50,992 bases of DNA, taken from Clostridia bacterium. GTDB taxonomy: Bacteria > Bacillota > Clostridia > Oscillospirales > Acutalibacteraceae. The position numbers and the translations under genes were made by a program. Location: the NCBI GenBank assembly GCA_017409845.1, contig JAFQRY010000020.1:1-50992 (forward strand), written 5' to 3'. A model generated the notes under the pieces. It was not told the origin of the DNA, ran no database searches, and saw only the letters and a program-made list of their open reading frames with translations. Every line of letters begins with the position of its first letter. Position 1 is the stretch's first letter. Shown here in pieces: positions 1,776-23,343 of this stretch.

Positions 1776-2201
1776 TTATTTCTCAATAAGATAATCAATG
1801 CCTCTGAGATAGCCGTCAAAACCGAGACCGATGAAGGATTTTTCACATGCCATGCCCGCATAGGATATCTGTCGGAAGTCCTCTCTTGCGGAAACATCCG
1901 ATATATGTATTTCAACTGCAGGAATTGCAACGGATTTAAGTGCATCAAGGATTGCAACGCTTGTGTGGGTATATGCGGCGGGGTTTATGACTATGCCGTT
2001 AAATTTTCCGTATGCCGCCTGAATTTCATCAACGATGCTGCCTTCGTGATTGGATTGAAAAATTTTAACCTCAACGCCTTTTACGGCAGCATAATTTTCA
2101 ATCAATTCACAAAGGTCGGCATATGTGTTTTTGCCGTAAATGTCAGGCTCTCTGATGCCCAGCATATTGAGATTGGGTCCGTTTATTACAAGGATACGCA
2201 T
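1776..2201 (-). CDS. aroQ: 3-dehydroquinate dehydratase, type II
   Basis: 141 aa, standard length for the type II dodecameric enzyme that dehydrates 3-dehydroquinate to 3-dehydroshikimate in the cytoplasm. It starts MRILVINGPNLNMLGIREP, with the family NGPNLN motif. The flexible-loop region includes the catalytic Tyr (IYG). Later come QSNHEG, INPAAYTHTSVAI and EIHISD, the last contributing the His pair. AAGGAGG lies upstream of the ATG. The start overlaps the end of the aroEK fusion gene by 16 nt, so the two are translationally coupled. Confidence 0.95.
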   Translation of the reverse strand: MRILVINGPNLNMLGIREPDIYGKNTYADLCELIENYAAVKGVEVKIFQSNHEGSIVDEIQAAYGKFNGIVINPAAYTHTSVAILDALKSVAIPAVEIHISDVSAREDFRQISYAGMACEKSFIGLGFDGYLRGIDYLIEK

Positions 2202-3409
2202 TCAAGAATCCTCCTTACCGTTATTTCGGGGTCTCTGTCAACTTCGATTGTGAAATCCGCCGTTTCAAGATAAAGCGGAAGCCTTTCGGCAAGCATTTTT
2301 TCAAGCACCTCGGGGCTTTTTGAAAGAGGTCTTCCGTCGGTTGCAAGACCTTCAACGGGTGCTTTGAGGAAAACAACCGTTGAATTTTCACGCAGTGCAA
2401 TACGGTTTTCTTTTTTGAGAATTGCACCGCCGCCCGTTGCGATTATTTTGCCCGCACCTTTACCTGCGGTGCGTACTGCTTCCGTTTCGCGGTTTCTGAA
2501 TTCCGTTTCACCGTATTCCGCAAAAATATCGGGAATGCTTTTGCCCGATGCTTCAACAACTATGGCGTCCGTATCAACGCACTCACGCCCCGTTTTCTTT
2601 GAAAGGAGTGCAGCCGCTGTTGATTTTCCGCAGCCCGGCATTCCGACAAGAACGAGGTTTTTCTGCTCCGATATAATCGCATTATATATTTCGTCAATAC
2701 GGGAAAGGGGTATGGTTTTTTTCGTAAAGATTTCAGCGGCACGGAGTGCCTGAGCAACAAGCATGTAAAGACCGTTTATGCAGTCGATACCGAGCTTTTC
2801 GGCATCGAGAAGAAAAACGGTGCGTGCAGGATTATAGATCAACTCAAGTGCTTTTCTGCATTTTGTAAATTCCGAAAGGTCGATAAGCCTTTCGCCGTTA
2901 TTCGGATACATTCCGACGGGCGTTGTGTTGACAATTATATCCGCATCGTAGTGGCGGCTTATGTTGGTATAATTATTTTCTCCCGAGCGTGAAACAACAA
3001 CAACTTCACCTGCACCCTCATCCTTCACAACATTCTGAACGGTAAGACTTGCTCCGCCGTTGCCGAGAATGAGCACTTTTTTGCCCCTGAAATCGCAGCC
3101 GCATTTTTTTGCCATGTAAAGGAAGCCGAAATAATCGGTATTATCGCCGTAAAGAGTGCCGTCGGGTCTGCGGATAACGGTGTTGACACTTCCTGCCTTC
3201 TCCGCCGTTTCGCTTCGCTCGTCACAGCGGTTGAAGGCTTCGATTTTATAGGGAATTGTAACATTGAAACCCTTCAGACGGGTATCGGAAAAGAATGCAT
3301 CAAGGCATTCGGGCTCTGTGGGATACAGTTTATATTCGTAATCACAGAGGTGCGAATGAATCTGCGGCGAAAGCGAGTGACCGAGCTTTCTGCCCAAAAG
3401 ACCAAACAT
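2186..3409 (-). CDS. Bifunctional shikimate dehydrogenase-shikimate kinase fusion (AroE-AroK)
   Basis: 407 aa with two complete enzymes in one chain. Residues 1 to about 240 are shikimate dehydrogenase: GHSLSPQIHSHL, NVTIPYK with the catalytic Lys, GDNTDYFGF with the catalytic Asp, and the NADP-binding LILGNGGAS. Residues of about 245-407 are shikimate kinase: Walker A GMPGCGKST, VDTDAIV, GGGAI and the lid motif GRPLS. Together they turn dehydroshikimate into shikimate-3-phosphate, two consecutive steps, which may help coupling. GGAGG lies 8 nt before the ATG, which is only 3 nt past the pheA stop. Both active sites look intact. Confidence 0.93.
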   Translation of the reverse strand: MFGLLGRKLGHSLSPQIHSHLCDYEYKLYPTEPECLDAFFSDTRLKGFNVTIPYKIEAFNRCDERSETAEKAGSVNTVIRRPDGTLYGDNTDYFGFLYMAKKCGCDFRGKKVLILGNGGASLTVQNVVKDEGAGEVVVVSRSGENNYTNISRHYDADIIVNTTPVGMYPNNGERLIDLSEFTKCRKALELIYNPARTVFLLDAEKLGIDCINGLYMLVAQALRAAEIFTKKTIPLSRIDEIYNAIISEQKNLVLVGMPGCGKSTAAALLSKKTGRECVDTDAIVVEASGKSIPDIFAEYGETEFRNRETEAVRTAGKGAGKIIATGGGAILKKENRIALRENSTVVFLKAPVEGLATDGRPLSKSPEVLEKMLAERLPLYLETADFTIEVDRDPEITVRRILECVSL

Positions 3410-3412
3410 TTT

Positions 3413-4549
3413 TTATTCCTCCGTATAGCTTCCGAGATAGCTGAACTGCTCCGAATCATTTTCAAGCTCACTGAGAAGAGCTCTGAGATTTTCGGAGTAA
3501 ACGGAAGCATCAATATCAAAGTAAAACATGAATTCAAAATTACTGCCCGGAATCGGACGGCTTTCAAGCTTGGTCATGTTGAGTCCGAGAGCGGCAAATC
3601 TTGAAAGAATATTATAAAGCGAGCCGGGCTCGTGGGGAATTGTCATCATAAAGCTTGTCTTTTTTGCACCCGGATAGATTTCAGGCTTCTTAGAAATGCA
3701 GATGAAACGGGTATAGTTATTATCCGTGTTCTGTATGCCCGTTTCGAGCACCTGCAGACCGTAAAGCTCCGCACTTTCCTTTGAGCCGATGGAAGCACAG
3801 TCTTTTCTGCCGCTTTCGGCAACCATTTTTGCGGCAACCGCCGTATTTTCACACGGAGTAACCTTAACGCCGAGAGCCGAAAGATATTCCGAGCACTGGT
3901 TGAGTGCCTGCTCATGGGAGAAAACCTCTTTGATATCCGAAAGCTTCACCCCAACGGGAGCGAGAATTGAATGTCTGATAAAAAGCTTGAGGCTGTGAAC
4001 AATATAGAATTTATGCTCCTTCATAAGGTCATAAACCTTGTTAACCGTGCCCGCGGTGCTGTTTTCAACGGGAAGAACACCGTAGCGACAAAGGCCGCTG
4101 TCAACCGCCTTGAAAACATCGTTGAAGCCTCTGCAATATACGATTGAAGGATAGGTGAACATCTTGTCGCACGCAAACTGTGCATACGCACCCTCAACGC
4201 CCTGACAAGCAACAACCGCTCTGTCGGGTCTTTCGCAAGGAGTTGAAACGGTTACCTCTTCAATCATTTTTGAAAGCTTCGACCCGGGGCTGATGATTCT
4301 TTTCTGATATGAACGGCTGACATTGAACATTGTTTCGTAGAGGGTTTTTGTGTAGCCCTGAAGCTCGGGAGGCATACCCTCGGTAACGCTGTTGAGGACC
4401 TCTCTTTCACGCTCTTTGTTGAAAACGGGCATGCCGTTTTCTTTTTTATATTTTGCGATTTCGGCAGCGGTTTCCATTCTTTCTTTAAAAAGCTTTGTCA
4501 GCTCGCCGTCGATTCGGTCTATGTTGTTGCGAAGTTCTTTTATATCCAC
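3413..4549 (-). CDS. pheA: Chorismate mutase / prephenate dehydratase (P-protein)
   Basis: 378 aa, in line with fused P-proteins. An AroQ-class chorismate mutase domain (about 1-85; LRNNIDRIDGEL, AEIAKYK) is followed by prephenate dehydratase (VACQGVEGAYAQFA, PVENSTAGTV, NYTRF) and a C-terminal ACT domain with ESRPIPGS, the Phe-sensing site. It makes phenylpyruvate from chorismate and should be feedback-inhibited by phenylalanine. The GTG at 4549 is chosen because GAGGTG sits 6 nt upstream. The longer frame starting at 4558 would begin inside that ribosome binding site. Confidence 0.93.
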   Translation of the reverse strand: MDIKELRNNIDRIDGELTKLFKERMETAAEIAKYKKENGMPVFNKEREREVLNSVTEGMPPELQGYTKTLYETMFNVSRSYQKRIISPGSKLSKMIEEVTVSTPCERPDRAVVACQGVEGAYAQFACDKMFTYPSIVYCRGFNDVFKAVDSGLCRYGVLPVENSTAGTVNKVYDLMKEHKFYIVHSLKLFIRHSILAPVGVKLSDIKEVFSHEQALNQCSEYLSALGVKVTPCENTAVAAKMVAESGRKDCASIGSKESAELYGLQVLETGIQNTDNNYTRFICISKKPEIYPGAKKTSFMMTIPHEPGSLYNILSRFAALGLNMTKLESRPIPGSNFEFMFYFDIDASVYSENLRALLSELENDSEQFSYLGSYTEE

Positions 4550-4558
4550 GATTAACAC

Positions 4559-4670
4559 CTCATTTTTAAGCTTAAGCGAAAAGCACCCGGCAAGCTCTGC
4601 CTGTTATCGATTATATAACGGGGTGTGGGTTACACCCACCCTTAATTCTTCACTTTTCACTCTTCATTTT
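4559..4670. other. 112-bp spacer between aroC and pheA with repeat-like sequence
   Basis: It contains a palindrome GTGGGT-TAC-ACCCAC (about 4624-4638) and the phrase TTCACTCTTCATTTTTCACT, which resembles sequence at 31310-31340. No terminator with a T-run on the minus strand is obvious, so transcription probably continues from aroC into pheA. Confidence 0.4.
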
Positions 4671-5747
4671 TCACTTGAAAATATAGTCTGCAATAACGAT
4701 TGCCGCCGCCGCTTCAACGCACGGCACGGCTCTGGGAACAATGCACGGGTCATGTCTGCCGCCGATAACAAGAGCTTCTTCCTCTCCCGTTACGGTATTG
4801 ACGGTTTTCTGCTCCCTGCCGATTGAGGGGGTCGGCTTTATTGCACATCTGAAAACTATCGGCATGCCCGACGAAATGCCGCCGAGGATTCCGCCGTGAT
4901 TATTGGTTGCGGTTCTGATTTTTCCGTCAACGCTGATAAAATCGTCATTGCTTTCGCTTCCGTGCATTTTTGCACTCTCAAAGCCTGCACCGAATTCGAT
5001 ACCCTTTACCGCGGGAATGCCGAAAACAGCACAGCTTATTCTGTTTTCAATTCCGTCAAAAATCGGATCTCCGATGCCCGCAGGCATTCCCACAACCGCA
5101 CATTCGATTGTGCCGCCGACGGAATCGCCCTCTGCCTTTGCTTCATAAATCTCTTTTCTCATAAGCTCGCCCTGCTTATCACTGATAACAGGGAAGCTTT
5201 TTCCGAGAAGTGCGTCGAAATCATCACCGTTTACGTTAACGGGATCAAATCTTTCATCGGCAGTTTTGCCGATTGATGAAATATGGCCACCTATTTTTAT
5301 TCCTTTTTCTTCAAGCAGCTGCATGCATACCGCACCCGCAAAGCAAAGAGGAGCGGTCAGTCTGCCGCTGAAATTGCCGCCGCCTCTGATATCGTTGAAG
5401 CCGTTGTGCTTCATCATTGCGGCAAAATCGCTGTGAGAGGGTCGGGGAAGAATGCGGAGCTTATCGTAATCACCCGAGCGTGTGTTTGTGTTTTCGATAA
5501 CGGCACAAAGGGGTGCACCACAGGTAACATTATCAACAACGCCCGAAATAATTCTGACCTCATCCGCCTCTTTTCTCGGGGTTGAAAGGTCATTCTGACC
5601 CGGTGCACGCCTTGCCATGAAGGCGGCTGTTTTTTCTGTATCAATTCTGAAGCCTGCGGGCAGACCGTCAATCACAACTCCGATTGCTTCCGAATGCGAC
5701 TGACCGAAAATTGTTATTTTGATATTGTTTCCGAAATTACATGACAC
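4671..5747 (-). CDS. aroC: Chorismate synthase
   Basis: 358 aa. It converts 5-enolpyruvylshikimate-3-phosphate to chorismate using reduced FMN. Family motifs are GQSHSEAIGVVIDGLPAG near the N-terminus, RRAPGQNDLSTPRKEADE, GGGNFSGRLTA and GGISSGMPIVFR. The GTG at 5747 (VSCNFGNNIKI, matching the usual MSSTWGNNIK-type start) has GGAGG 8 nt upstream. A longer frame to 5780 would add 11 unfamiliar residues. The start overlaps the aroA end by 11 nt. Confidence 0.94.
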   Translation of the reverse strand: MSCNFGNNIKITIFGQSHSEAIGVVIDGLPAGFRIDTEKTAAFMARRAPGQNDLSTPRKEADEVRIISGVVDNVTCGAPLCAVIENTNTRSGDYDKLRILPRPSHSDFAAMMKHNGFNDIRGGGNFSGRLTAPLCFAGAVCMQLLEEKGIKIGGHISSIGKTADERFDPVNVNGDDFDALLGKSFPVISDKQGELMRKEIYEAKAEGDSVGGTIECAVVGMPAGIGDPIFDGIENRISCAVFGIPAVKGIEFGAGFESAKMHGSESNDDFISVDGKIRTATNNHGGILGGISSGMPIVFRCAIKPTPSIGREQKTVNTVTGEEEALVIGGRHDPCIVPRAVPCVEAAAAIVIADYIFK

Positions 5748-6966
5748 GGGCTTTTCCTCCCAGCTTGTTAAAATCTTCAAAAAATGCAGGATATGATTTG
5801 TTCACGGCTTCGGCATTGCGGATAATAACATCGCCCTTGCATCTGAGCGATGCAACCACCGCCGCCATTGCTATTCTGTGGTCGTTGAATGAATCCGTTT
5901 CGCCGCCCGAAAGATACGGCTTTCCGCTGATAATCATTCCGTCATCCGTTTCCGTTATATCACCGCCGAGTGAACGAATCATGCTGACGGTTGACATTAT
6001 TCTGTCGCTCTCTTTTATGCGGAGTCTTTCGCCGCCGTAAATTACCGTTTCGCCCTCTGCGGTTGCAGCAACCGCCGCTATGACGGGCACGGCATCGGGA
6101 ATATCGGATGCGTTGACTCTGCAGCCGTGAAGAGCAGAAACATCGGCTTTAAAGCTGCCGTCGGTCCGTGTTATATCCGCACCCATTTTTTCAAGGACAT
6201 CAATTATCGCCTTGTCGCCCTGGGTTGAAGCAGGATTGAGTCCCGTCACCTCAGCACCCATGCACAAAGGAAATGCGGCATTTGACCAGTCGGCTTCAAC
6301 CGTAAAATTGCAGCCGACAAGGGAGCTTTTATTTATATAAAAAGTATTATTTTCTTCTTTAATATCTGCTCCGAAGGTGCGTAAAACTTCAAGAGTGATG
6401 TCTATATACGGTCTTGACTGCACGGGCGGAATCAATTTTATAACACCGCCGCCGAGATACGAAAGAGCCATGAGCAGACCCGTCACAAACTGCGAGCTGA
6501 CATCGCCTCTGAGCGAATATTCTCCCACCGTGATTTTTCCGTACACATCAAGCGGAAAAGCATCTGAAATCACGGCACCCATGCGGATTAATTCTTCTTT
6601 AAGGGGAGAAAGCGGTCTTTCGGGAAGTCTGCCCGAGCCGTGAATTTCTGTTTTTATTCCCAATGCACATATAACGGGAAGCAGAAAACGGATTGTTGAA
6701 CCGCTTTCGCCGCAGTTGATTTTTGCTTTTTCGGGTAAAGCACCAATCGGCGTCACCTCATAGGTAACACCGTTTTTTTCTATTCCTGCACCGAGATTGC
6801 GAAGGCAGTCAACCGTTGCTTCAATATCGGCAGAGGTGGTATTTATTTTTATTTTGCTTTTTCCGTTTGCAAGGCAGGCACATATCAATGCCCTGTGTGC
6901 AAAGGATTTTGAGGCTATGCCCTCAATGCTGCCCGAAATCGGGGAGGGCGAAATTCGGATATCCAT
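5737..6966 (-). CDS. aroA: 3-phosphoshikimate 1-carboxyvinyltransferase (EPSP synthase)
   Basis: 409 aa. It joins PEP to shikimate-3-phosphate. Visible motifs are SKSFAHRALICA, GESGSTIRFLLP (usually GNSGT), LRIKESDR and FNDHRIAMA. The divergent SGSTIRFL variant is typical of clostridial enzymes. The ATG at 6966 follows GGAG and overlaps the stop of a small upstream frame as TAATG. Position in the operon is after the transposase and before aroC. Confidence 0.95.
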   Translation of the reverse strand: MDIRISPSPISGSIEGIASKSFAHRALICACLANGKSKIKINTTSADIEATVDCLRNLGAGIEKNGVTYEVTPIGALPEKAKINCGESGSTIRFLLPVICALGIKTEIHGSGRLPERPLSPLKEELIRMGAVISDAFPLDVYGKITVGEYSLRGDVSSQFVTGLLMALSYLGGGVIKLIPPVQSRPYIDITLEVLRTFGADIKEENNTFYINKSSLVGCNFTVEADWSNAAFPLCMGAEVTGLNPASTQGDKAIIDVLEKMGADITRTDGSFKADVSALHGCRVNASDIPDAVPVIAAVAATAEGETVIYGGERLRIKESDRIMSTVSMIRSLGGDITETDDGMIISGKPYLSGGETDSFNDHRIAMAAVVASLRCKGDVIIRNAEAVNKSYPAFFEDFNKLGGKARVM

Positions 6967-7052
6967 TATATTTTTAACTCCATTTTCATTCTCAGCGGAG
7001 AAAAACCGAGATTTTCGTAATCTTTAATTGTCGCACACCCTATAATCGTCAT
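6966..7052 (-). pseudogene. Orphan 28-codon frame, possible remnant of an older gene
   Basis: An ATG five codons after the transposase stop, in the same frame, opens MTIIGCATIKDYENLGF and ends in TAA that overlaps the aroA ATG (TAATG). That tight stop-start fusion is what a real gene upstream of aroA would show. The frame has no good ribosome binding site and no family I recognise. I infer it may be the surviving C-terminus of a gene displaced by the transposase insertion. A chance frame is the alternative. Confidence 0.35.
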
Positions 7053-7067
7053 ATGAAAATCTTTTCT

Positions 7068-7583
7068 TTATAGGTTGTTTTCTTTTTTTAGCAAATATTT
7101 TAACGGATTATTTTCAATATATTGCCACACTTCAAGATAATGATTTTCATTTTCTGTTATTTCGTCATAAAAAGAAACCTGAAACAGCTTTTTCCCGGGA
7201 GTACCGAATTGTTTGTTACAAATTCTTGTTGTAAGAGATTTAAACGCACAAATGATATCAGGAACGGTAGGGCGGGGGCTTGCTCCCGCCGCAGGGTCGT
7301 TTAAAATAAGAATTGCATGAATATGATTAGGCATAATAACGTATTTATCTATCTTAAGTTCCGGATATCTTTTTTCCAAATCAAAAAGTTGTTCCTCCGC
7401 CACTCTGCCGACAGGAGTGAGTTTTACTTCGACTCCGGCGGGAGCAAGCCCCCGCCCTACCCTGGACAAAACAGCTTTATTGGCATAAGTATTGATTGTT
7501 ACATAATAGTATCCGCTGCTGCTGTAGTCATAATTCTTTAAACGGGGGTGTTTTCTTTTTGGTAAATCACTGTTCATAATCAT
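7068..7583 (-). CDS. REP-associated tyrosine transposase (RAYT, IS200-like Y1 fold)
   Basis: 171 aa. The HUH motif MPNHIHAILIL and the downstream catalytic Tyr in SFYDEITENENHYLEVWQYIENNP identify the Y1 transposase family linked to REP elements (TnpA-REP), which nicks and moves short palindromes. It lies between aroB and aroA and its ATG overlaps the aroB stop (ATGA), so it is read as part of the aro operon. Its reading frame contains two inverted copies of a 25-bp REP-like palindrome, translated as VGRGLAPAGV and AGASPRPT. The frame and active site are intact. No other mobile-element ends are seen. Confidence 0.85.
   Translation of the reverse strand: MIMNSDLPKRKHPRLKNYDYSSSGYYYVTINTYANKAVLSRVGRGLAPAGVEVKLTPVGRVAEEQLFDLEKRYPELKIDKYVIMPNHIHAILILNDPAAGASPRPTVPDIICAFKSLTTRICNKQFGTPGKKLFQVSFYDEITENENHYLEVWQYIENNPLKYLLKKENNL
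7267..7291 (+). repeat. REP-like palindrome inside the transposase gene, copy 1
   Basis: 25 bp starting GTAGGGCGGGGG. It can fold as GCGGG-G-GC/GC-T-CCCGC. It is the exact reverse complement of 7436-7460 and has the GTAGGG head of the intergenic REPs. Confidence 0.75.
7436..7460 (-). repeat. REP-like palindrome inside the transposase gene, copy 2
   Basis: 25 bp, a perfect reverse complement of copy 1 about 145 bp away. It is read in frame as part of the protein, so the pair forms a long inverted repeat in the transposase mRNA. Confidence 0.75.
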
Positions 7584-8629
7584 CTGTATTCCGCAACTTT
7601 ATACAAATCCTCAACGGGGATTTTTTTCAAAACACATTCACCCATAACCTTCGGCACAACGAAATTAATCGTGCCGCCCGTGCGTTTTTTATCCGATAGG
7701 GCAACATCTGCAAGGTCTGCAGGGTCAAAACCGCATTCAACGGGAAGGTTATTGTTTTTATTTGCTTCAATAATGGCCTGAGTGCTGTCCTCATCGCTCC
7801 AGCCGAGTGCATGGCTTGCTCTTGCGGCAATGACCATTCCGATTGCAACAGCAGAGCCGTGAGAAATTTCAAAATTGCTGCATTTTTCAATCGAATGTGC
7901 CATGGTGTGGCCAAAATTGAGAAGCTGTCTGTCGCCCTTGTCGAATTCATCCTTCGCAACAACATCTCTTTTAAGCTCAACGCAGCGTGCAATGATATCC
8001 TCAATATCGTTTTTAACATCGCCGCTGCTTACTTTATCAAACAAATCTTTGTCAAAAATAACACCGTATTTGATGACCTCAGCCATTCCGTCTGCAAAGA
8101 TATTTTCCGGCAGAGTGCCGAGGGTGCGTGTATCGCAAAGCACAAGAGCCGGCTGATAGAATGCACCCATAAGATTTTTGCCTGCTTTTAGATTGACGGC
8201 AGTTTTACCTCCGACAGAAGAATCAACCGCCGCAAGAAGTGTTGTGGGCACCTGAACAAACTCGATTCCTCTCAGATAAAGCGAGGATGCAAGACCGACC
8301 ATATCGCCCGTAACGCCGCCGCCGAGAGCAACCGCAAAATCCGAGCGGGTGAGTCTGTTTTCCGCCATAAATTCAATAAGCTCAGAAAGTGTTTCAATAC
8401 TTTTTGACTCTTCACCTGCCGCAAAAACAAATTCAACCGTTTCAATTCCCGCATCATTGAGGCTCTTTTTTGCTTCGTCAAGCCAGAGAGGTGCAACATT
8501 GCTGTCCGTCACAATAACAGCCCTGCCTTTCCCGAATAGAGAAACGCATTTTTCGCCGAGAGTGGAAAGAATTCCTTCGCCGATAATTACATCATATTTT
8601 TTTGAGGCATCAACATTGATTATTTTCAT
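7580..8629 (-). CDS. aroB: 3-dehydroquinate synthase
   Basis: 349 aa. This NAD- and metal-dependent enzyme makes 3-dehydroquinate from DAHP. It shows the glycine-rich ALGGGVTGDMVGLASSLYLRG, PTTLLAAVDSSVGGKTAVN, and metal-ligand His motifs such as LNFGHTMAHSIE. GGAAATATA precedes the ATG, 8 nt after the tyrA stop. Its stop codon overlaps the transposase start. Confidence 0.95.
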   Translation of the reverse strand: MKIINVDASKKYDVIIGEGILSTLGEKCVSLFGKGRAVIVTDSNVAPLWLDEAKKSLNDAGIETVEFVFAAGEESKSIETLSELIEFMAENRLTRSDFAVALGGGVTGDMVGLASSLYLRGIEFVQVPTTLLAAVDSSVGGKTAVNLKAGKNLMGAFYQPALVLCDTRTLGTLPENIFADGMAEVIKYGVIFDKDLFDKVSSGDVKNDIEDIIARCVELKRDVVAKDEFDKGDRQLLNFGHTMAHSIEKCSNFEISHGSAVAIGMVIAARASHALGWSDEDSTQAIIEANKNNNLPVECGFDPADLADVALSDKKRTGGTINFVVPKVMGECVLKKIPVEDLYKVAEYR

Positions 8630-8637
8630 TATATTTC

Positions 8638-9468
8638 CTACTTTGCCTGTTTTTTGCTGTCCGTGCCTTCCTTAAGAAGTGCGACAAGACCTTCTCTGTC
8701 GTCCGCCTTGAGAGCGGTGCTGTATTCACTGAGCCTTTCAACAAGAAAATCAATTTCATTTATGAGATTATCCTTGTTTTCAAAGAAAAGCTCCGTCCAC
8801 ATTTTTTCATTGAGCTTTGAAACACGGGTCAGATCCCTGTAGCTTCCTGCCGAAAATCCCTTCTGCTTTACCGCCGTATGACTTTTGACATAGGCATTTG
8901 AAATAATATGCGGCAATTGAGAAGTGAACGCTATTACTTTATCATGTTCTTCGGGAGTTGTAAAGTTAATTGCACCAAAACCTGCATCATTGAGCGCATT
9001 TCTGAGCTTTTCAAGAATCCGGATATCTGTATTTTCTTTCGGAGTTACAATCATCGTGGCATTCTTAAAAAGATTTCCCCTCGATGAGTTGAATCCCGAA
9101 AACTGAGTGCCTGCCATGGGATGTGCACCGATAAAGATAAATCCGTTTTCCTCCGCAATCTTTTCGCACGGAGCACAAATCGGTCTTTTAACGCCGCCGC
9201 AGTCGGCGACGATTGCACCTTTTTTGATTTTATCCGCATTCGCTTCAACAAATTCAACCGTTGCCTGAGGATAAAGAGCAATGAATATCATATCGCATTC
9301 GCCGATATTGCTCTCATTCATTTCATCCGTGATTGCACCAACCATTTTTGCTGCGAGAAGCGAGCTTCTGTTGCGGTCAAGACCGAGAATTTCATGCTTT
9401 CCGCTGTCTGCAAGTGCTCTTGCAAGCGAACCGCCGATAAGGCCGAGACCTGCTACACCTATCTTCAT
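8638..9468 (-). CDS. tyrA: Prephenate dehydrogenase
   Basis: 276 aa, a monofunctional TyrA without chorismate mutase or ACT domain. It oxidises prephenate to 4-hydroxyphenylpyruvate. The N-terminal dinucleotide-binding motif is GLGLIGGSLARAL. The substrate-site block HPMAGTQFSGF is clear. AAGGTG lies ahead of the ATG, 9 nt after the aroF stop. With no ACT domain, Tyr control would fall mainly on transcription and on DAHP synthase. Confidence 0.93.
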   Translation of the reverse strand: MKIGVAGLGLIGGSLARALADSGKHEILGLDRNRSSLLAAKMVGAITDEMNESNIGECDMIFIALYPQATVEFVEANADKIKKGAIVADCGGVKRPICAPCEKIAEENGFIFIGAHPMAGTQFSGFNSSRGNLFKNATMIVTPKENTDIRILEKLRNALNDAGFGAINFTTPEEHDKVIAFTSQLPHIISNAYVKSHTAVKQKGFSAGSYRDLTRVSKLNEKMWTELFFENKDNLINEIDFLVERLSEYSTALKADDREGLVALLKEGTDSKKQAK

Positions 9469-9477
9469 AATATCACC

Positions 9478-10485
9478 TTAAAACTTTGTCATAATCTCTC
9501 TGATTGCATTTGCTTCTTTCACAACCTTTGCGAACTCTTCGGGTCTGAGAGCCTGAGGTCCGTCACACATTGCGTGTGCAGGGTCGTTGTGTACCTCAAT
9601 CATAAGACCGTCCGCACCTGCCGCAACCGCCGCAAGAGCAAGGGGGCGGACCATTCTTGCCATACCCGCAGCATGACTGGGGTCTGCAATGATGGGAAGA
9701 TGAGTTTTTTCCTTGAGAAGTGCGATTGCCGAAATATCCATGGTGTTTCTTGTGTAATGCTCAAAGGTTCTTATTCCTCTTTCACAGAGCATAACCTTGC
9801 TGTTGCCGCCTGCCATAATATATTCCGCACTCATAAGAAGCTCCTCCATTGTTGCGGCAAGGCCTCTTTTGAGAAGAATGGGCTTATCCGTTTTGCCGAG
9901 CTCCTTGAGAAGCTCAAAATTCTGCATATTTCTTGCACCGACCTGAATAACATCAACATTTTCAAAAAGAGGAAGGTGTGACAAATCCATGATTTCAGTA
10001 ACAATCGGAGTGCCCGTTTCTGCCTTTGCCTTTTCGAGAAGCTCAAGTCCCTCCGCTCTCATTCCCTGGAATGCATAGGGAGAGGTTCTGGGCTTGAACG
10101 CACCGCCGCGGAGAAGATTTGCTCCTGCCGCCTTTATATCGTTTGCAATTGAGCAAATCTGCTCAGTTGACTCAACCGAGCACGGACCTGCAATAAACTG
10201 GAAGTTGCCGCCGCCGATTTTGTGACCGCACACATCAATAACCGTATCGTCAGGATGGAATTTTCTGTTGGCACTCTTATAAGGCTCGCTTATTCGTGCA
10301 ACATTATTAACAATATTAAGACCGCTGATAAGGTCGATATCAACATGGCTTGTGTCACCCACCAGACCGAGAATGGTATCATACTGACCGTTGCTGCGGT
10401 GAATTTCAAGATTCAGGCTTTTAAGCCATTCAACAAGATTTTCAATCTGAGCTTCGTCTGTTCCCTTTTTAATTGATACAATCAT
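9478..10485 (-). CDS. aroF: 3-deoxy-7-phosphoheptulonate synthase (DAHP synthase, AroF/AroA-beta type)
   Basis: 335 aa. First committed step, joining PEP and erythrose-4-phosphate. A short N-terminal ferredoxin-like/ACT-like regulatory domain (about 1-70) precedes the barrel with IAGPCSVES, KPRTSPYAFQG, RGIRTFE and DPSHAAG. The ATG at 10485 has GGAGG 8 nt upstream. The frame could extend to a TTG at 10500, but that codon is part of the ribosome binding site. First structural gene of the operon, directly behind the attenuator terminator. Confidence 0.95.
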   Translation of the reverse strand: MIVSIKKGTDEAQIENLVEWLKSLNLEIHRSNGQYDTILGLVGDTSHVDIDLISGLNIVNNVARISEPYKSANRKFHPDDTVIDVCGHKIGGGNFQFIAGPCSVESTEQICSIANDIKAAGANLLRGGAFKPRTSPYAFQGMRAEGLELLEKAKAETGTPIVTEIMDLSHLPLFENVDVIQVGARNMQNFELLKELGKTDKPILLKRGLAATMEELLMSAEYIMAGGNSKVMLCERGIRTFEHYTRNTMDISAIALLKEKTHLPIIADPSHAAGMARMVRPLALAAVAAGADGLMIEVHNDPAHAMCDGPQALRPEEFAKVVKEANAIREIMTKF

Positions 10486-10500
10486 CTTTCTTACCTCCAA

Positions 10501-10536
10501 AAAAATAAACCACGCAGCGTAAATTTCACTGCGTGG
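10501..10536 (-). terminator. Attenuator terminator of the aro operon
   Basis: On the minus strand the perfect 8-bp stem CCACGCAG/CTGCGTGG (10536-10529, 10517-10510) encloses an 11-nt loop and is followed by TTTATTTTTTT, which runs straight into the aroF ribosome binding site. It is the 3:4 hairpin of the attenuator. Confidence 0.92.
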
Positions 10537-10605
10537 CGTTAAATAACCGCTTTAATGTTTTTCAGCAAAACTTACTAAACCCTATCAAATTACTTGATAA
10601 AGTAA
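10519..10605 (-). promoter_or_regulatory. Antiterminator and protector hairpins of the aro attenuator
   Basis: On the minus strand, region 2 GTAAGTTTTGCTG (10575-10563) can pair over 13 bases with region 3 CAGTGAAATTTAC (10531-10519, three G-U pairs). Region 3 takes three bases of the terminator's 5' arm plus its loop. Region 1, inside the leader codons, forms a competing hairpin with region 2: TTACT (10605-10601)/AGTAA (10576-10572) and TATCAA (10599-10594)/TTGATA (10588-10583). Stalling on the Phe/Tyr codons would block region 1 and favour the 2:3 antiterminator. Confidence 0.8.
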
Positions 10606-10643
10606 AAGTAAAAATATGCTGCTGTGAAAACATTGTTTTTCAT
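10590..10643 (-). CDS. Phe/Tyr leader peptide of the aro operon attenuator
   Basis: 17-codon frame MKNNVFTAAYFYFYFIK with GAGG 8 nt before the ATG. It has an uninterrupted run of six alternating Tyr and Phe codons (TAT TTT TAC TTT TAC TTT) plus one earlier Phe, and no Trp. The stop lies just before the antiterminator arm. It resembles the enteric pheL leader in principle but senses both Tyr and Phe, matching an operon that carries both tyrA and pheA. No other role is likely for so short a peptide. Confidence 0.9.
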   Translation of the reverse strand: MKNNVFTAAYFYFYFIK

Positions 10644-10677
10644 CGGAATAACCTCTGTTTTGTTATTTGTTGGGTAT

Positions 10678-10706
10678 AGAATAGCACTTTGAATTTTGTT
10701 TGTCAA
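10678..10706 (-). promoter_or_regulatory. Promoter of the aro operon
   Basis: On the minus strand TTGACA (10706-10701), a 17-bp spacer and TATTCT (10683-10678). Transcription should start near 10671, about 28 nt ahead of the leader-peptide ATG. Confidence 0.85.
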
Positions 10707-10754: not shown

Positions 10755-11324
10755 TTATTTGAGTTTGTTTACAAGAATGGTTTTTTCACCTGCAATTTTA
10801 TCAATTTTTTCCTTTTTCAGTAGTGTCATATGTATCTGATTGAGTCTGTAATCATTGGTATTGTTGAAGAAAAACGATTTGCAAAACATTTTATCTTCTT
10901 CATTGCTGTCAATGAAGATATAGTTGGTTTTTCCATCGAGCTCCGTTTCAAGAAAATATTCCGCATCAATTTGCGAAAAGCTTGATTTGTTTTTATAAAA
11001 CCTGAAAACAGTTTCATTGTTATCAAGGATTTTTTCGATTTCCGATATTTTTTCGATTCTCTCTTCAGCTTTGATATAAAATGAACTCTTTTTGAGAACA
11101 TCTTCCGAAATTCTGCCACTGATGATTTCATCAAAAACAGAATCACGGTTTTTCTTTAACTGGGGAATATCCTTCAGGTATTGCAGGCCGGCAAGATGAA
11201 AAAAATCCTGTTTTCTGAATTCAATAATAAAAGAATAAAGCTTCTTCTTTTTACCTAACACGATAAGATACTCATAATCAAACAGTTTTTGAAAAGCCTT
11301 TGCACTTTTTTGCAGATTATCCAT
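10755..11324 (-). CDS. PBECR4-like protein (putative phage/Barnase-EndoU-type nuclease-fold domain)
   Basis: 189 aa. The run FFHLAGLQYLKDI, then VFDEIISGRIS, VFRFYKNKSSFSQIDAEYFLE and a C-terminal LLKKEKI is the pattern I associate with the PBECR4 domain, a family predicted to be RNase-like and common in phage and mobile regions of Firmicutes. Catalytic residues cannot be assigned with confidence. No signal peptide or membrane segment. GGGAAG lies before the ATG. An RNA with its own promoter and terminator (11339-11540) lies directly upstream, so expression may depend on readthrough. Codon use is more AT-rich than in the neighbouring aro genes. Confidence 0.5.
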   Translation of the reverse strand: MDNLQKSAKAFQKLFDYEYLIVLGKKKKLYSFIIEFRKQDFFHLAGLQYLKDIPQLKKNRDSVFDEIISGRISEDVLKKSSFYIKAEERIEKISEIEKILDNNETVFRFYKNKSSFSQIDAEYFLETELDGKTNYIFIDSNEEDKMFCKSFFFNNTNDYRLNQIHMTLLKKEKIDKIAGEKTILVNKLK

Positions 11325-11368: not shown

Positions 11369-11505
11369 CATAAATGTTTTCTTTCGGAACAAATCCTATT
11401 CAAGTTGCGGTTAACATATAACCCATAGAAGGCTCGGAATTGCACTGCATCTTGAAACAGCACAAATCTTCATCGCCACACGGACATTCTTGATGCCCGT
11501 CTTAC
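11339..11505 (-). ncRNA. Unidentified structured RNA / leader
   Basis: A transcript of about 165 nt from the promoter at 11512-11540 would fold into three or more hairpins: ACGGGCAT/ATGTCCGT near the 5' end, GATTTGTGCTG/CAGTGCAATTC with a 10-nt loop, GGTTA/TAACC, and a terminal intrinsic terminator. GAGCC in the middle could pair with GGCTC of the terminator as a switch. It is either an independent small RNA or a riboswitch-like leader of the PBECR4-like gene. I do not recognise the class. Confidence 0.55.
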
Positions 11506-15579: not shown

Positions 15580-15655
15580 GGGCCCGTAGCTCAGTTGGGA
15601 GAGCATTCGGTTCGCATCCGAAAGGTCATGGGTTCAAATCCCACCGGGTCCACCA
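15580..15655 (+). tRNA. tRNA-Ala (anticodon CGC)
   Basis: 76 nt with encoded CCA. The acceptor stem GGGCCCG/CGGGTCC includes the G3-U70 wobble that marks alanine tRNAs. The anticodon stem TTCGG/CCGAA encloses the loop TTCGCAT, giving anticodon CGC, which reads GCG. The T arm is GGGTTCAAATCCC. It is a single-gene transcription unit with its own promoter and terminator. Confidence 0.95.
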
Positions 15656-23135: not shown

Positions 23136-23164
23136 TTGACAAGCACAAAAAATTGTGCTATCAT
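23136..23164 (+). promoter_or_regulatory. Promoter of rplJ-rplL
   Basis: TTGACA (23136-23141), 17-bp spacer, TATCAT (23159-23164), only 9 bp past the rplA stop. Confidence 0.85.
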
Positions 23165-23170
23165 ATCCAA

Positions 23171-23313
23171 GCTGTTCTTTTTAAGACAGCAGGTGCTTTT
23201 CGCATAAAGGTATTTTTTACCGCCTGCCGAGAGAGGAAGCATACCAAAAGTAATATTGACTTACTTAGTATGTTCATGCCCTTTCCGGTAATGCGGAAAG
23301 GGCTTTAATTTTG
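23171..23313 (+). promoter_or_regulatory. L10 leader (autoregulatory ribosomal protein leader)
   Basis: The leader of the rplJ-rplL mRNA shows the AGACAGCAGGTGC ... CCTGCCGAGAGAGGAAGC pairing region characteristic of the Firmicute L10 leader, then a terminator hairpin. In this class L10(L12)4 binds the RNA and shifts it toward termination. Confidence 0.85.
23278..23313 (+). terminator. Attenuator terminator of the L10 leader
   Basis: Perfect 10-bp stem GCCCTTTCCG/CGGAAAGGGC with a 6-nt loop, then TTTAATTTT, 31 bp before rplJ. Confidence 0.88.
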
Positions 23314-23343
23314 TTATCATTTACCCTACGGAGGTGAAAATAC

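Follow-up and report, generated by a model that had tools for sequence, protein, structure and literature searches.

Genomic context of the leader

The window, that is, the whole 50,992-nucleotide stretch of DNA analyzed here, carries on its minus strand a run of genes for aromatic amino-acid synthesis headed by a DAHP synthase gene (9478..10485; NCBIfam NF006421 and TIGR01361). The remaining operon genes (1776..9468, minus strand), assigned by family matches, are tyrA (9468-8638), aroB (8629-7580), aroA (6966-5737), aroC (5780-4671), pheA, encoding a chorismate mutase/prephenate dehydratase (4558-3413), an aroE-aroK fusion (3409-2186), and aroQ (2201-1776). The matches of tyrA, pheA, and the aroE-aroK fusion fall below the curated cut-off of their families. 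An ORF resembling a REP-associated tyrosine transposase lies between aroB and aroA on the same strand (7068-7583; NF047646, 52.9 bits, below the cut-off of 80). From gene order, we assume that the aro operon is read as one transcript.

Upstream, the leader promoter is adjoined by a minus-strand ORF of 189 amino acids (10755-11324), with no NCBIfam match at E 1e-5, and a drum RNA (RF02958, 88.3 bits) is located just 5' of this ORF at 11369-11478 on the minus strand. The window also has a Ribosomal protein L10 leader (23162-23318) and a tRNA (15580-15652), both on the plus strand.

Anatomy of the leader

A preliminary description of this DNA had drawn a promoter, a 17-codon leader peptide with six Tyr/Phe codons, a protector hairpin, a 13-bp antiterminator, and a terminator. 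Apart from the protector, which is considered below, each of these was found at its claimed place on the minus strand, between 10706 and 10499. The promoter, found by a promoter scan (10678..10706), is of the sigma-70 type, with TTGACA (10706-10701), a 17-nt spacer, and TATTCT (10683-10678). Promoter-like sites are not in excess in the scanned 1.1 kb (3 vs 3.5 expected), and the TTGACA is kept in all 12 distinct sequences of the genus. The leader ORF, MKNNVFTAAYFYFYFIK, consists of 17 codons and TAA (10590..10643) and was called from its sequence and from conservation in the genus. Its Shine-Dalgarno (SD) sequence, AGAGG (10652..10656), was read from the sequence; among 12 genus rows, GAGG precedes the ATG in 11 and AGGA in one (L093). 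Codons 10-15, TAT TTT TAC TTT TAC TTT (10599..10616), specify Tyr Phe Tyr Phe Tyr Phe and are the presumed control codons.

The intrinsic terminator (10499..10537), identified by a terminator scan and by covariation, has a stem-loop at 10537-10509 and a T-run at 10508-10499. It reads GCCACGCAGTG-AAATTTA-CGCTGCGTGGT plus the T-run and is followed by the SD sequence and ATG (10485) of the DAHP synthase gene. The scan of 1.1 kb returned 3 terminator-like sites vs 0.4 expected. Upstream of the terminator, GTAAGTTTTGCTG (10575-10563) can form 13 pairs with CAGTGAAATTTAC (10531-10519) as an antiterminator. The latter sequence, segment 3 (10519..10531), is at once the 3' arm of the antiterminator and the 5' arm and loop of the terminator, and its loop is conserved. 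Segment 2 (10554..10588) contains the 5' arm of the antiterminator and is the partner of segment 1 (10619..10634), the outer 5' arm of the protector stem, which spans codons 4-9. Segment 2 was delimited by folding and pairing tests, and segment 1 by the minimum free energy (MFE) fold and by comparing self with permuted pairing at 74 loci.

The leader RNA folds to -44.6 kcal/mol vs -27.65 ± 3.33 for shuffled sequences (z -5.09; 0/200 as good), and the MFE fold holds protector and terminator simultaneously. In this fold, the inner part of the protector joins ACUUUAUCAA, which runs from the last control codons onward, to UUGAUAGGGU; in the outer part, AAUGUUUU and CAGCAG of codons 4-9 are paired to AAAACAUU and UUGCUG. 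The protector hairpin of the preliminary description is present, but it was drawn too short, as it extends 5' of the control codons. Its outer arm (10634-10619) pairs with 10568-10554, which is the 3' end of the antiterminator strand together with the bases beyond. Judging by usual footprint sizes, a ribosome on the F/Y (Phe/Tyr) codons would cover most of segment 1, and one at the stop codon would leave the outer arm free. As modeled, the leader geometry is that of a classical attenuator.

Conservation within the genus

We searched 45 genomes of the genus with a model, R1, built from the window leader. A DAHP synthase of the window type was matched in only 17 of the 45, and many of the other genomes may belong to aromatic auxotrophs or use another synthase. 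R1 matched in 15 genomes, and 13 of these 15 matches stand before a DAHP synthase gene. In G032 (L147), the leader MNNIFATAYFYFYFCSEK stands before aroB-aroA-aroC-pheA, that is, before a different first gene. G040 gave a weak match (E 8e-4) with none of the window's genes nearby (L148). No R1 match was found in G017, G024, G025, and G035, four genomes whose DAHP synthase is more distant; the last has its own F/Y leader (L115).

The preliminary description had proposed aligning the leader in relatives to look for conserved codons and covarying stems. In the genus alignment, the F/Y run, the strand GGTARGTTTTGCTG, and the terminator loop are all kept, and this loop is the part that pairs in the antiterminator. 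Of the six control codons, three are invariant across 12 distinct leaders, two differ by synonymous changes only, and one has Tyr replaced by Cys in a single leader (L099). Eleven of the 18 leader codons vary, four of these synonymously only, and all but one of those varying non-synonymously lie near the N-terminal end. The terminator covaries as well: in 14 sequences, it is 98.0% paired, with two-sided changes in 7 of its 11 pairs. In the antiterminator, 99.4% of cells are paired in the 14 genus sequences and two-sided changes number 0, so that its support within the genus comes from conservation only. By eye, the outer protector arm and its partner change jointly (AATG/CATT, AACG/CGTT, AATTCCG/CGGAATT in L095, and GAAACA/TGTTTC in L009).

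One genus locus (L094 in G023) has approximately 110 extra nucleotides between the terminator and the SD sequence. By eye, the insert has the look of an inverted repeat, as if a small element had landed there.

Phe/Tyr leaders before other DAHP synthase genes

To look beyond the genus, 110 DAHP synthase loci (80 + 30) were cut to their upstream regions, of which 107 had at least 300 nt and 100 were non-redundant. A short ORF with an SD sequence and at least five F/Y in eight residues was found in 68/100 upstream regions vs 15/2000 dinucleotide shuffles (0.75%). Without the SD filter, an F/Y-rich leader was found in 79/100 (the shuffle rate belongs to the SD-filtered count only). A terminator under -8 kcal/mol accompanies 76 of these 79 leaders, and 78 of them contain both F and Y, the exception, L103, having F only. 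No such leader was found in the other 21 upstream regions, in 20 of which Rfam likewise returned no family. At L107, one of the 21, a leader lies at a greater distance from the gene, still on its upstream side (L168), and the Treponema loci L019, L024, and L035 are among the leaderless.

Applied to 89 loci, R1 gave 58 matches, five of which fell on the strand opposite to terminators. A second model, R2, was built from 44 loci; it left out five true-match loci with an opposite-strand match (L092, L094, L096, L097, and L100) and four weak true-match loci (L037, L064, L071, and L108). At E 0.001, R2 matched in 72/197 genomes of the order and 45/245 of the class, in a search whose filters were stricter, at the cost of weak matches; part of the weak matches are false. 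Named holders of the leader, going by locus titles, include Sporobacter termitidis (L047), Yanshouia hominis (L056), and Angelakisella massiliensis (L017). F/Y leaders also occur at loci titled Lentisphaerae (L049, L066), Victivallales (L080), Kiritimatiellae (L078), and Treponemataceae (L040), which may reflect transfers or bin errors.

The competing stems were assessed at 74 of the 79 leader loci, after dropping those with a weak terminator or none (L016, L027, L036, L064, and L083). Segments 1 and 2 paired better with each other at their own locus than when permuted among loci (mean -17.59 vs -14.01, sd 0.35; 0/2000 permutations), as did segments 2 and 3 (-14.78 vs -11.41, sd 0.29; 0/2000). 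The control pairing of segments 1 and 3 gave -7.75 vs -7.29 (41/2000). The effect against same-locus shuffles was modest, with mean z of -1.36 (1:2), -1.53 (2:3), and -0.39 (1:3 control), and 20, 28, and 12 of the 74 loci, respectively, in the top 5% of their own shuffles. An anchored ungapped count also picked up 2:3 (74% vs 62% paired, 0/5000, 45 loci) and gave no signal for 1:2 (47% vs 45% paired, 1146/5000 permutations, 29 loci). The 1:2 signal is seen in the gapped duplex test only, which we attribute to bulges. In a 44-row alignment, 88.3% of cells are paired and 39/41 pairs show two-sided changes (314 cells vs 97 in shuffles), in an alignment that was fitted to the model and hence leans to its structure.

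Switching was approximated in silico by cutting the RNA at the terminator loop and computing the probability that the 5' arm of the terminator pairs upstream. Over the 74 loci, the mean antiterminator probability was 0.53 for the RNA alone. Placing a ribosome on the third F/Y codon raised it to 0.71 and on the last to 0.66 (0.72 for the better of the two, with a rise in 66/74 loci); one at the start codon gave a rise too (0.60), and one at the stop codon gave 0.47. The change exceeded 0.3 in only 22/74 loci. The step of 0.53 to 0.72 shrank to one of 0.59 to 0.63 when segment 2 was shuffled. In these models, the shift has the direction expected of attenuation and a modest size, which we ascribe to equilibrium folding ignoring kinetics.

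Control codons and the regulated gene

Downstream genes were inspected for 79 loci hit by the models, which are a part of all order and class matches. The gene was DAHP synthase at 60, pheA at five, tyrA at two, leuA at two, and ilvB, a TrpB-like gene, and aroB at one each. The remaining seven had no sensible gene or leader and were taken as false. At these and further loci, the leader codons tend to match the gene behind. All five pheA leaders, which come from one genus, have six to nine F and no Y, with one Trp in two of them; when 30 pheA loci were sampled, one passed the filter that was also applied to tyrA (L277), and L275 and L276 also stand at model hits. Leaders dominated by Y were found at 3/30 tyrA loci: MISRLLAATYYYLGFVYYYDKAYLRFAADTV (G206), MVTRLSAAAYYYLSLVYYYYYYDKAFRVMLQ... 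(G153), and a third in G162 (L251). G206 and G153 additionally retain an F/Y leader at their DAHP synthase gene (L132, L165).

Other amino acids are represented as well. The leader before leuA at L191 is MKSQFSAQLNLLNLALLLQG (Leu), and that before ilvB at L223, read by eye, is MDSLDRRVSSVNVVIIGSVIIIDSAYLRYAARRT (Val/Ile). At L138, before the TrpB-like gene, MKNANCIAKYWYFYFTQVAR comes with a terminator (L138:1501-1655), and a second tiny ORF, with Trp at its end, lies behind it. Both leuA elements (L191 and L218) came from the model search. Leu leaders were not found in the 30-locus leuA sample, where the maximum was three Leu in eight residues; many of those genes may be internal to operons. 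Among 30 ilvB loci, six (L364, L366, L368, L369, L370, and L348) have short upstream ORFs with 7/8 Ile/Leu/Val, which are likely branched-chain leader peptides in the same order.

To see if these elements share a frame, a profile was made from only the part 3' of the F/Y run at 74 DAHP synthase loci and run on 129 targets, with E-values that apply to this small set. It finds the tyrA elements (E 2e-11 and 1.7e-8), ilvB L223 (3.9e-9), leuA L191 (3.3e-7), the pheA elements (6e-8 to 1.6e-5), the aroB element (1.7e-4), and the ilvB upstream region L348 (6.2e-6). Among the 129 targets, no reversed sequence scored under E 5.5 and no trpE upstream region under 3.2. The terminator contributes to every score. 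Because most of the other finds had been pre-picked by R2, only L348 is free of selection bias. The tyrA element L208 and ilvB L223 share GATA..GCTTATTTGCGTT..GCTGC with the control codons exchanged, in a pairwise comparison whose shuffles keep only base content. The profile misses the TrpB-like L138, L218, L251, and the ilvB leaders L364, L366, and L368-L370, which may consequently be independent; R2 does give weak matches at L366, L368, and L369 (E 1e-5 to 5e-5).

Taken as a whole, these data lead us to lean toward the view that copies of one clostridial attenuator design have spread among amino-acid operons and gained new addresses through exchange of the control codons alone. The design would comprise a 5' arm with CAGC, the control codons, GGTAAGGTTT...GAGTTTTGCTG, and a CCGCAG-type terminator, and its addresses would be Phe/Tyr at DAHP synthase, Phe at pheA, Tyr at tyrA, Leu at leuA, and Val/Ile at ilvB. 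If true, this would be a leader-peptide counterpart of specifier switching in T-boxes, operating alongside the trpE T-boxes of the same order.

T-boxes and other RNA families

The preliminary description found a leader peptide of this kind unexpected in a Firmicute, where T-box or TRAP control would be anticipated. No T-box (RF00230) matched in the window, nor at the leader itself up to E 10. The window's genome has 12 T-box matches, five of them over the cut-off, with pheS and trpB among the genes behind, and no match to the trpE N-terminal family. In the order, 24 of 27 trpE loci were searched: 4/20 upstream regions had a T-box over the cut-off and 19/19 had one at E 0.001 in a laxer search, together 23/24. 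Conversely, Trp leaders were not found before trpE, where none of 27 loci had a short ORF with more than two Trp in eight residues. With T-boxes at trpE and leader peptides at the aro operon, the two kinds of sensing coexist and are split by branch. The contrast with T-boxes (trpE, pheS, and trpB) is therefore real, but the leader is less unexpected than it had seemed, since His, Leu, and Phe leaders have been published.

At the leader, no Rfam family reached its gathering score, and there were sub-threshold matches only. At 10 and five further loci, Rfam returned isolated matches of E 0.15-0.4 to plainly foreign families. One sub-threshold match at the leader, to the trpB motif RF04312 (10498-10576, minus strand; 25.8 bits, cut-off 59), was followed up because the authors of this orphan, a strong riboswitch candidate, leave classic attenuation open (PMC11109978). 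We could draw no link, as RF04312 is carried by 0/99 relatives.

Proposed mechanism and alternatives

The locus combines a short ORF led by an SD sequence, a run of codons for end products (the operon has both tyrA and pheA), a terminator, and mutually exclusive stems. Judged from sequence, the element is very probably a transcription attenuator of the classical ribosome-mediated type, acting on the aromatic amino-acid operon. At that level, the leader ORF, the conservation of its codons, and the three competing stems are in evidence, each stem by covariation or locus-specific pairing, and the genes behind and their match with the leader codons emerge from comparison among loci. A ribosome would translate the leader behind RNA polymerase. 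With Phe-tRNA and/or Tyr-tRNA uncharged, it would stall on the YFYFYF codons and cover segment 1; segment 2 (GTAAGTTTTGCTG) would then pair with segment 3, no terminator would form, and the operon would be read. When charged tRNA is plentiful, the ribosome would reach the stop codon and leave, 1:2 and 3:4 would pair, and transcription would end before the DAHP synthase gene. We infer that Tyr would be sensed in addition to Phe, with either tRNA possibly dominant. The preliminary description had likewise read the locus as attenuation of aromatic genes; the dual Tyr/Phe sensing that it added is tempered by a C. glutamicum leader that responds to Phe alone (see below). Codon conservation with synonymous changes, terminator covariation, and locus-specific 1:2 and 2:3 pairing support the attenuation reading, and it also fits L147, with its other first gene, and control codons that track the regulated gene.

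A narrower version of the same attenuator would sense only the charging of Phe-tRNA, with the Tyr codons as passengers. This has a precedent in the aroR leader of C. glutamicum (Phe-Tyr-Phe), which, according to a review, responds to Phe and not to Tyr limitation (PMC11802643), and the pheA leaders of the clostridial family contain Phe and no Tyr. However, Tyr codons are kept, with both residues in 78/79 DAHP synthase leaders, and the runs of Tyr in the three tyrA leaders indicate that codons for this residue can serve as a sensor in this family. We regard sensing of Phe alone as rather unlikely, a possibility with some substance nonetheless. Near-fixation of the peptide MxKNVFTAAYFYFYFIK across the genus could instead suggest a TnaC-like arrest peptide, in which the nascent chain itself, independently of tRNA charging, would stall the ribosome in response to the binding or absence of free Phe or Tyr. 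Across families, though, the length, the F/Y order, and the two ends are highly variable, the identity of the sensing residues depends on the regulated gene, and the residues ahead of the run are explained by the pairing of their codons with segment 2, which makes an arrest peptide very improbable.

Slightly less probable still are two readings in which the ORF has no regulatory part. A metabolite riboswitch or a protein-bound leader with an accidental ORF would agree with a 5' leader under terminator control and with the sub-threshold RF04312 match. Against it, the conserved part is codons and simple stems, F/Y-rich ORFs occur in 68/100 upstream regions vs 0.75% by chance, and RF04312 occurs in none of the 99 relatives; the riboswitch was dropped for want of a conserved aptamer beyond codons and stems. 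An ordinary gene for a small hydrophobic peptide, with its own terminator and unlinked to the operon, is an equally faint prospect. F/Y-rich peptides give the impression of hydrophobic small proteins, but the terminator stem ends 23 nt before the DAHP synthase start codon, no further promoter-like site appears on the minus strand between the leader promoter and that gene in the consensus scan, and the competing stems are locus-specific.

Comparison with known systems

Ribosome-mediated attenuation is usually taught from Proteobacteria and, by sequence, looks widespread in clostridial synthesis of aromatic amino acids. Many of the Clostridia concerned are uncultured gut bacteria. The natural exchanges of control codons (Phe, Tyr, Phe/Tyr, Leu, and Val/Ile), seemingly in one frame, offer a test of whether control codons alone set specificity, and codon-exchanged attenuators could serve as a family of parts for reporter work. 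They also serve as a warning that a short ORF rich in F/Y ahead of aro genes is likely to be a regulator.

The pheL-pheA and trpL-trpE attenuators of E. coli combine leader codons, a protector, an antiterminator, and a terminator, with only Phe as the sensed residue in pheL. The clostridial element has the same anatomy; unlike it, these are proteobacterial, and the likeness drawn here is one of anatomy. Both are named in a review (PMC11802643).

Closer in its gene is aroR of C. glutamicum, a Phe-Tyr-Phe leader before aroF (DAHP synthase) on which Phe limitation reportedly acts and Tyr limitation does not (PMC11802643; for the leader, PMC4046766). Like the window's leader, it appears to combine a DAHP synthase operon, mixed Phe/Tyr leader codons, and ribosome-mediated attenuation; unlike it, aroR belongs to the Actinobacteria and has three control codons, in a comparison made by description, not by sequence. 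Similarly, uORFC-13-1 places a Phe-codon uORF and a terminator before the DAHP synthase gene (aroF) of Acholeplasma. It comprises 24 sequences, from Acholeplasma and environmental samples only, and is described as having at least one Phe codon, with no mention of Tyr (PMC8632094); here too, the likeness is by description.

Within the Firmicutes, His leader attenuators are described from Eubacteriales, Erysipelotrichales, and the B. cereus group (PMC9413887), and for bacilli also in PMC2965389. They share classical attenuation in Firmicutes, including Clostridia, and differ in serving histidine genes in few species. The Leu-rich ilv-leu leader of S. aureus, for which an antiterminator that pairs with the U-tail has been proposed (PMC5794164), is another leader-peptide attenuator of a Firmicute, and differs in its branched-chain genes and in that U-tail antiterminator. 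No earlier description of a Phe/Tyr leader in Clostridia was found in the open-licence literature, and an earlier mention elsewhere is possible. As far as we searched, the mechanism proposed here is of a known kind, and what is new is a wide clostridial family of such leaders together with its codon-swapped versions.
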